Source of the DNA: Bacteroidales bacterium
GTDB lineage: Bacteria > Bacteroidota > Bacteroidia > Bacteroidales > Muribaculaceae
Direction: 5' to 3'
Length of the DNA: 64,000 nt
Assembly: GCA_015061005.1 (NCBI GenBank)
Contig: SUXJ01000007.1
Span: 62,001-126,000, forward strand
Positions within the stretch are counted from its first letter, which is position 1. Each line of letters starts with the position of its first letter. Positions 16,435-57,180 of the stretch are shown in pieces. A program made the position numbers and the translations under genes. The notes under the pieces were generated by a model, which worked only from the letters and a program-made list of their open reading frames with translations, did not search any database and was not told the DNA's origin.

Positions 16435-16446
16435 AACAACATAATT

Positions 16447-16633
16447 GCCTCACTGAGCAGATTGGGAAACTCTTCAAACCTATTTAACTCCCGAGACAAG
16501 CTTAACGAATCAATGGCGGGCTCCATCCCTTCGGGGAAGTGCCTTCGGGCACCAAGGCAGATTACAAAGGTTCGCGAGCACTCAAATCCTGTCATTCGGA
16601 GTTTCTTCCAAATCCTCAGTGAGGCTTTTTATT
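16447..16633 (+). ncRNA. Candidate structured ncRNA, 6S RNA-like (about 187 nt)
   Basis: Perfect 11-bp closing stem GCCTCACTGAG (16447-16457)/CTCAGTGAGGC (16615-16625), extended by GATT/AATC, GGAA/TTCC and ACTC/GAGT; central unpaired region; two C(UUCG)G hairpins; T5 tail. No ORF. Confidence 0.55.
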
Positions 16634-19916: not shown

Positions 19917-20049
19917 TTCCTAATTAGAGAAATTTTTCTTTTTTTCAATACTGCAAAGTTACTCCATTTTATTCACATCTGCAACCCCTCATCACTTTTC
20001 ACTATCCACTCTCCACTAAAATCTACGATTTTGTCCTCCGAACCCTTCG

Positions 20050-20057
20050 TAACTTTG
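20050..20057 (+). promoter_or_regulatory. TAACTTTG -7 element driving RNA element 1, copy 1
   Basis: Exact TAnnTTTG; upstream block AAATCTACG...CCTTCG also shared with copy 2. Confidence 0.6.
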
Positions 20058-20059
20058 CA

Positions 20060-20223
20060 TCAGCAATGTTCAATGGAGTTCTTTGACGTATTGGAAAAAA
20101 GAGGGTGAATGATCCGTCCCGGTCATTCCAAACACGCCGCCGGGCAGGCCGCGGTCGGCAAAACTCAAGGTGGCTCCACCGATGCAAGCCCGGGAAACTT
20201 GCGCCGACCGAGCCGCCCTTTTG
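20060..20223 (+). ncRNA. Structured RNA element 1, copy 1 (unidentified; Bacteroidales-1-like possibility)
   Basis: Near-identical core GAGGGTGAATGATCCGTCCCGGTCATTCCAAACACGCCGCCGGG(c/t)AGGCCGCGGTCGGC also at about 56742; 5' hairpin with diverged sequence; compensatory terminal stem GGTGGCTC/GAGCCGCC then TTTTG; GC-rich relative to flanks. Confidence 0.65.
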
Positions 20224-20272: not shown

Positions 20273-20365
20273 CGCAGACCGCACCGCAGAAGCCCGGTCA
20301 TGGGCAAAGCGAGAGGGTCGGCTGACATACATAACTGAAAAGCGTTTACTCAACGCTCTTTTTTG
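20273..20365 (+). ncRNA. Small structured RNA element 2, copy 1 (about 90 nt) with intrinsic terminator
   Basis: Block GCAGCGCAGACCGCAC(C/T)GCAGAAGCCCGGTCATGGGCA...AGGGTCGGC(T/A)GACATA conserved with 56972-57064; 3' AGCGTT-tactc-AACGCT-CTTTTTT hairpin. Confidence 0.6.
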
Positions 20366-56434: not shown

Positions 56435-56508
56435 GCTTCAGTAGCTCAGTTGGTTAGAGCACCTGACTGTTAATCAGGGGGTCGTTGGTTCAAGCCCATC
56501 CTGAAGCG
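56435..56508 (+). tRNA. tRNA-Asn (anticodon GTT)
   Basis: gcttcag...ctgaagc acceptor; loop CTGTTAA. Confidence 0.93.
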
Positions 56509-56537
56509 CAAAATAAACATTCTTTCAAAATAACTTT

Positions 56538-56611
56538 GCTTCAGTAGCTCAGTTGGTTAGAGCACCTGACTGTTAATCAGGGGGTCGTTGGTTCAAGCCC
56601 ATCCTGAAGCG
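56538..56611 (+). tRNA. tRNA-Asn (anticodon GTT), identical second copy
   Basis: Same 74-nt sequence as 56435-56508. Confidence 0.93.
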
Positions 56612-56612
56612 C

Positions 56613-56644: not shown

Positions 56645-56690
56645 GCACCTTTTTTACGAAAATCTACGCTTTCACCCTCCATACCCTTCG

Positions 56691-56698
56691 TAACTTTG
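56691..56698 (+). promoter_or_regulatory. TAACTTTG -7 element driving RNA element 1, copy 2
   Basis: TAnnTTTG with upstream ACCCTTCG context shared with copy 1. Confidence 0.6.
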
Positions 56699-56700
56699 CA

Positions 56701-56867
56701 ACATCCAAATGTCAAAGTTAGTACATTGAAATGTTGGAACAAGAGGGTGAATGATCCGTCCCGGTCATTCCAAACACGCCGCCGGGTAGGCCGCGGTCGG
56801 CAAAAACTCAAGGGGGACTCTGTCAGTGCAAGCCTGGGAAACTCGCACCGACCGAGTCCCCCTTTTG
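56701..56867 (+). ncRNA. Structured RNA element 1, copy 2
   Basis: Core near-identical to 20100-20160; 5' hairpin CAACAT..AATGT/ACATT..ATGTTG; terminal stem AAGGGGGACTC/GAGTCCCCCTT perfect 11 bp then TTG. Confidence 0.65.
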
Positions 56868-56971: not shown

Positions 56972-57064
56972 CAGCGCAGACCGCACTGCAGAAGCCCGGT
57001 CATGGGCATTGTGGGAGGGTCGGCAGACATAATGATTAGAAAGCGTTTACTCAACGCTCTTTCT
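56972..57064 (+). ncRNA. Small structured RNA element 2, copy 2
   Basis: Conserved with 20273-20365, including the AGCGTTTACTCAACGCTCTTTCTT terminator hairpin. Confidence 0.6.
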
Positions 57065-57180
57065 TGGCTTTTCGAAATCTGGTAAATTTCAATCACAGTC
57101 AGGTTAGATGCAGCGGTAGATGCCTTTGTGGATATGTATAAATATTGATTAACGCGATAGCGCTAATCCGTATCTCATAT

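Follow-up and report, generated by a model that had tools for sequence, protein, structure and literature searches.

The window, the whole 64,000-nucleotide stretch of DNA analysed here, holds two copies of an intergenic element, which we refer to as element 1. Sequence inspection and pairwise alignment placed both copies at the positions of the initial annotation, aligned as it had described, with a near-identical core of about 60 nt and a shared upstream promoter. The common core (20101-20163 in copy 1, 56743-56806 in copy 2) differs by one change in 63 nt (C/T at 20145), and the same -7 box precedes both copies. The features of the two copies are as follows.

20018-20057, plus strand: promoter region of copy 1, AAAATCTACGATTTT...TAACTTTG, with the -7 box at 20050-20057; the block also lies 5' of 9/9 short and 5/5 long copies of the element
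20076-20094, plus strand: boxA-like motif of copy 1, GAGTTCTTTGACGTATTGG, compared with rRNA leaders (GAGTACATTGAAA) and with the 3' ends of related units
20107-20128, plus strand: hairpin 1 of copy 1, GAATGATCCGTCCCGGTCATTC, invariant (the same in 17/17 copies)
20136-20159, plus strand: hairpin 2 of copy 1, GCCGCCGGGCAGGCCGCGGTCGGC, nearly invariant among copies
20167-20220, plus strand: terminal hairpin of copy 1, with arms GGTGGCTC (20169-20176) and GAGCCGCC (20210-20217), then a short T-run; from covariation and folds
56659-56698, plus strand: promoter region of copy 2, with the -7 box TAACTTTG at 56691-56698; from sequence and alignment
56720-56737, plus strand: boxA-like motif of copy 2, AGTACATTGAAATGTTGG; in sibling copies GAGTACATTGAAA gives a 13-nt identity with an rRNA leader
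56749-56770, plus strand: hairpin 1 of copy 2, invariant (the same in 17/17 copies)
56778-56801, plus strand: hairpin 2 of copy 2, nearly invariant among copies
56810-56864, plus strand: terminal hairpin of copy 2, AAGGGGGACTC...GAGTCCCCCTT, then a short T-run; from covariation and folds

The open frames that cross copies 1 and 2 are different frames, in agreement with the earlier remark that no ORF explains the element. The Rfam check that the initial annotation had called for, run with cmscan on Rfam 15, gave no gathering-score match at either copy and no credible match at a loose threshold. Its suggestion that the element might belong to Bacteroidales-1 (RF01693) did not survive, as that model matched neither copy, even when E values as high as 10 were allowed. 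Bacteroidales-1, suggested to be 6S-like and, like element 1, a candidate non-coding RNA of Bacteroidales in the same window, occupies a different locus: taking at least 60 bits against the RF01693 covariance model as the membership threshold, we found a clear member (133 bits, cmscan) at 16446-16632 on the plus strand. The analysis thus supports element 1 as a structured, probably transcribed non-coding element that is undescribed in Rfam.

Other features adjoin the two copies. A second repeated RNA-like element, GCAGACCGCA..GCCCGGTCA.GGGC..GGGTCGGC.GACATA..AGCGTTTACTCAACGCT, lies directly 3' of both (20276-20362 and 56974-57065, plus strand); it occurs at seven strong places and one weak one in the genome, has a TAnnTTTG box of its own and is followed at some copies by genes of the leucine-rich-repeat type. 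Two near-identical tandem tRNA-Asn genes lie just 5' of copy 2 (56435-56612, plus strand).

The terminal stem offers the clearest sign of a conserved structure. Its arms read GGTGGCTC/GAGCCGCC in copy 1 and AAGGGGGACTC/GAGTCCCCCTT in copy 2 with pairing kept, and the compensatory changes first seen between these two copies extend over the 17 copies of the genome to seven pairs with both sides changed, a result reached in 0/500 shuffles and reduced to 0-2 when the partner was slid, although the changes partly follow the division into long and short copies, so that there are fewer independent events than cells, and the kinship of the copies makes the covariation weaker than it looks. In the model-based alignment, paired cells amount to 95.6% overall versus 29-49% after sliding. 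This alignment shows little or no variation in hairpins 1 and 2, and covariation is therefore silent on them. Copies diverge by 0-2% in the core and by 6-18% in their remaining parts, a contrast that favours selection on the core over recent copying alone. When shuffled sequences were folded, copy 2 folded better than its shuffles (z -3.5) and copy 1 did not (z -0.7). The 5' hairpin, whose pairing had also been described as kept, stood only in part: two short copies, with CATTAT..ATGTTG, no longer form CAACAT/ATGTTG, a third has a mismatch in it, and the alternative 5' hairpin of copy 1 is weak (-4.2 kcal/mol). Because pairing is not kept in every short copy, we rejected a conserved hairpin at this place. 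The constant part of the 5' arm is a sequence with the look of a boxA, (G)AGTACATTGA..TGTTGG, and the arm is better read as a boxA-like motif.

The initial annotation counted two copies; both are real, and beyond the window the genome brings the number to 17, together with longer, protein-coding relatives. In the window's own genome (2.12 Mb in 18 contigs), blastn recovered 13 copies of element 1, and GAATGATCCGTCCCGGTCATTCC has 17 exact matches (0 for the reversed control); a 23-nt heart is identical in 17/17 copies, and all 17 are intergenic. Among 60 relatives, including 10 congeners, blastn matched nothing except a 24-nt leader piece in genome G014. The covariance-model search proposed at the outset was carried out on 399 genomes of the family with R1, a model of the 122-nt core and terminal hairpin; it recovered the 3' RNA in the window's genome and in no other, under strict filters that scored few candidates per genome and could miss weak relatives, and the evidence for this RNA therefore rests on one genome. 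The exact core had 0 matches in IMG/VR, and pattern matches to it in GTDB fell in unrelated genomes, mostly of high GC, and were taken as chance. No account of such elements turned up in a literature search, a weak argument for novelty given that subscription papers were mostly outside its reach. The G014 match to the 5' arm proved to be another boxA-like site at an unrelated locus with no CRISPR-like repeats nearby; this site, TTTAGTTCTTTGACATATTGG, lies on the minus strand of L134 (reverse-complement offset about 2521), a non-rRNA and apparently non-CRISPR locus.

The copies fall into three kinds. Nine short copies of ~210 bp, both window copies among them, consist of the promoter block ACGAAAATCTACGCTTT..TAACTTTGCA, a leader, the core with its two invariant hairpins and the terminal hairpin. 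Five long copies (C3, C6, C8a, C8b and C12) of ~1.1 kb begin with the promoter block of the short copies and continue with an ORF of ~205 aa (frameshifted in C8b), more conserved sequence, the boxA-like motif, the core and the terminal hairpin. Three copies (C9, C11 and C18b) are truncated. Comparison of the flanks establishes the kinship of short and long copies, which have the promoter block and the 3' RNA in common and differ in the middle.

The ORF of the long copies had no convincing match in Pfam, NCBIfam or defence families. Tblastn recovered relatives of it elsewhere in the family, including 18 copies in G065 and seven in G156, many of them at contig ends, as repeats would be. A profile of the ORF matched 52/399 family genomes, about 20 of which have a single match to a protein of roughly 300-820 aa. 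These full-length proteins are TerL-like, as judged from the two that we read, from a weak match to Terminase_6N and from about 29-33% identity over 90% to phage proteins, several of which are annotated as terminases. Once the single full-length matches are set aside, the short ORF form remains in roughly 30/399 family genomes; outside the family only full-length proteins match, and no TerL-like ORF of this kind was found in viral contigs or in phages.

Structural prediction points in the same direction. An AlphaFold2 model built from 36 sequences for L074, a relative of the ORF encoded in the window's genome, reached a pLDDT of 80.5; Foldseek gave T4 gp17 as its best PDB match (E 3.9e-4), followed by the P74-26 TerL ATPase domain, and terminases were prominent among viral models as well. 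Members of the ORF family are 200-260 aa long and comprise the ATPase part alone, with the RNase H-like nuclease domain and intact Walker A/B motifs absent. In the alignment, the TerL-type KSRQWGCST is replaced by DPSGSLT or DPPGxDST, and the product should therefore be inactive. On the modelled fold, the ORF product is predicted to be a catalytically degenerate TerL ATPase domain. It resembles phage TerL in the ATPase-domain fold and through a sequence link to TerL-type proteins of 574-581 aa, and differs from it in the loss of Walker A (DPPGxDST type), in lacking the nuclease domain and in being encoded by multi-copy dispersed units. Between ORF copies within a genome, dN/dS is 0.25 for the genome that holds the window and 0.04-0.13 for other genomes (dS about 0.13-0.36), which indicates that the protein is real and under purifying selection; its role is one that we infer. 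The 574-581-aa TerL-type proteins, which carry the deviant Walker A KSRQWGCST, are encoded in single copy (L111, 172-1917, minus strand; L112, 1324-3048, plus strand), with a TsaD-like gene adjoining that of L111, and two ORFs similar to them are present in the window's own genome (C1:100759 and C3:135095).

Related multi-copy units are present in roughly 30/399 sampled genomes of the family, in several genera. In several genomes examined copy by copy, the unit ends a few bases past TTGACRTATTG. Just 5' of this sequence is the hairpin GCGG..CCGC, and the bases that precede (A)AGAG pair with its loop. The loop and partner differ together between units (GCCGTGC/GCACGGC, GCCGAC/GTCGGC, GCTGC/GCAGC, GCCGTAT/ATACGGC), covariation that supports a pseudoknot in this 3' module; when partners were permuted among eight loop types the observed pairing was reached in 8/40320 arrangements, a figure that is indicative because we chose the segments manually. 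Matches to the pattern CGGCAAGMGNNCWTTGACATWTTG were present in 21/299 genomes, with as many as 18 in a single genome, whereas its reversed control gave 0, and Rfam gave no match at loci carrying the relatives' 3' modules. Many related units end in the pseudoknot followed by a boxA-like sequence that resembles those of rRNA leaders. In the long copies of the window's genome this module has a derived form and is followed by the boxA-like motif and by the core and terminal hairpin peculiar to the lineage, and the short copies keep the boxA-like motif with the pseudoknot absent. The units in other genomes are oriented with their tandem neighbours in 12 cases and against them in eight, and share no flanks between species, as expected of mobile elements. 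The module of pseudoknot and boxA is family-wide, lying at the 3' end of TerL-like ORFs in G156, G179, G207, G215, G229, G240 and others (loci such as L096, L154, L118 and L128).

In bacteria, boxA, of the type GTTCTTTAAAA (PMC7862264), binds NusB-S10, has been implicated in blocking Rho and also precedes CRISPR arrays (PMC4807359, PMC7862264). In genome G158, two of the four rRNA leaders contain GAGTACATTGAAA, which is present in several short copies, and the other two contain GAGAACATTGAAA; the window genome's own rRNA operons are unassembled. Units in G179 carry GCTCTTTGACA. The boxA-type sequence of E. coli is GNTCTTTRAMA, and GCTCTTTGACA is a single base away from the E. coli boxA. Judging by sequence and position, the motif may thus be a boxA and a candidate NusB-S10 site. 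The likeness to the boxA of rRNA and CRISPR leaders lies in GAGTACATTGAAA or GCTCTTTGACA; in contrast to those leaders, in the related units the motif is the last conserved sequence rather than part of the leader of a long RNA.

We put at slightly better than even the chance that element 1 represents the short form, devoid of the ORF, of an undescribed family of dispersed, probably mobile elements, of which the short copies would probably be non-autonomous and each a transcription unit of its own. The TAnnTTTG promoter would start an RNA of about 165 nt in each short copy; a boxA-like site near the 5' end of this RNA would load NusB-S10 onto RNA polymerase, and two invariant hairpins would follow before a strong terminal hairpin ends the RNA. 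In long copies, the gene for the ~205-aa degenerate TerL ATPase domain lies between promoter and boxA-like site. Short copies keep the two ends only, much as MITEs or REPINs stand to the elements they derive from; their propagation would occur in trans, through machinery that recognises either the invariant RNA or its hairpins when formed in single-stranded DNA. In favour of this reading we count the 17 intergenic copies, their shared ends with differing middles, the contrast in divergence between core and flanks, the dN/dS of the ORF, its multi-copy relatives with their contig-end positions, both orientations and unshared flanks, the TerL fold match and the TAnnTTTG boxes that downstream genes have of their own. 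Against it, no transposase or integrase was found, the 3' RNA was recovered from one genome alone, and the copies are co-directional with both neighbours at 11/11 informative sites in the window's genome, unlike those of a random inserter, a bias that may reflect selection against antisense transcription. The TerL-like protein is no evident recombinase, since it lacks Walker A and the nuclease domain. By eye, the copy flanks had no terminal inverted repeats or target-site duplications, and a comparison of C17 neighbours demonstrated no empty site, the congeners being too diverged. A reverse transcriptase was discarded as the general mover, PF00078 (RVT_1) being found in only 3/8 element-rich genomes, and a REP/RAYT system was rejected on the absence of PF01797 (Y1_Tnp) from the window's genome; for these reasons, and with no target duplication seen, mobility is something that we infer.

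The alternative that survives best, though we think it rather unlikely, is a multi-copy small RNA family serving the host, whose core would bind a protein or titrate Nus factors via boxA, whose copies would be kept because RNA dose matters, and in which the TerL-like gene would be an old passenger. A promoter and end hairpin of its own, which make the element its own transcription unit, and an invariant core set against variable flanks would fit such an RNA, and the 11:0 co-directional bias would suggest selection on transcription. Set against these are the absence of element 1 from every relative searched, the behaviour of ORF-bearing relatives as dispersed repeats in many species, and the lack of any sign of host need.

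Less probable again is a cis-acting leader, in which promoter, boxA and a conditional terminator 5' of the downstream gene would have spread as a mobile regulatory cassette. In its favour, boxA serves in antitermination in other settings (PMC7862264, PMC4807359), the copies of this genome are co-directional with their neighbours, and a short U-run ends the terminal hairpin. However, of the 15 downstream genes on the element's strand, 13 are preceded by a TAnnTTTG box of their own located after the element, two further downstream genes lie on the opposite strand, and the downstream genes have no theme in common. The downstream promoters weaken a pure leader reading, and it fits better to regard every copy as a separate transcription unit than simply as a leader. 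We find it equally improbable that the hairpins act as DNA (a bidirectional terminator, an insulator, a recombination site or a REP-like repeat) and that the RNA is functionless, for although the terminal hairpin is almost symmetrical, with an A-tract before and a T-tract after it, and palindromes match the covariance model on both strands, a terminator has no need of invariant asymmetric hairpins, conserved linkers or a conserved promoter, and a Y1 transposase is absent from the window's genome.

To return to the reading as a dispersed, probably mobile element, the TerL-like protein and the boxA module are its notable part. Dispersed repeats in bacteria usually trace to a transposase, whereas here the sole protein tied to the element derives from the ATPase domain of a phage packaging motor and is degenerate. 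Purifying selection maintains it in several genera, with many copies per genome, beside an RNA module with an antitermination-type end. It is tempting to speculate, and we consider it unlikely, that an ATP-dead, terminase-derived motor domain and a structured RNA together copy or package the element without a known recombinase, possibly via phage packaging, as a new type of bacterial mobile element; the RNA would consist of the pseudoknot or hairpins and of a boxA tying it to RNA polymerase, and element 1 would be a non-autonomous satellite RNA. If the elements are mobile, they point to an unrecognised route by which small elements spread; otherwise, they suggest that the host puts boxA and a phage motor domain to some unrecognised use.

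The arrangement bears some likeness to two known systems. Like REPIN/REP sequences with their RAYT (TnpA_REP), it combines many short intergenic hairpin copies, here 17 and all intergenic, with a smaller set of copies in which a protein is encoded, and the short copies are likewise presumed to be non-autonomous (PMC3116915, PMC8266576). It differs in that its protein is a TerL ATPase-like domain rather than a Y1/HUH enzyme, and in having its own promoter and boxA-like site. MITEs, such as BrickBuilt of Porphyromonas gingivalis (cited in PMC5771137), arise by deletion from a larger element whose two ends they retain, and the short copies relate to the long ones in just this way, both ends being kept and the interior deleted. 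In contrast to MITEs, no transposase is known, and neither terminal inverted repeats nor target duplications were seen by eye at the flanks; the ends of element 1 are a promoter and an RNA structure. Just 5' of the promoter, four longer copies (L042, L045, L046 and L047) also have a terminator-like hairpin, AAGTGGCTCrCC...GGyGAGCCACTTTTTTT.
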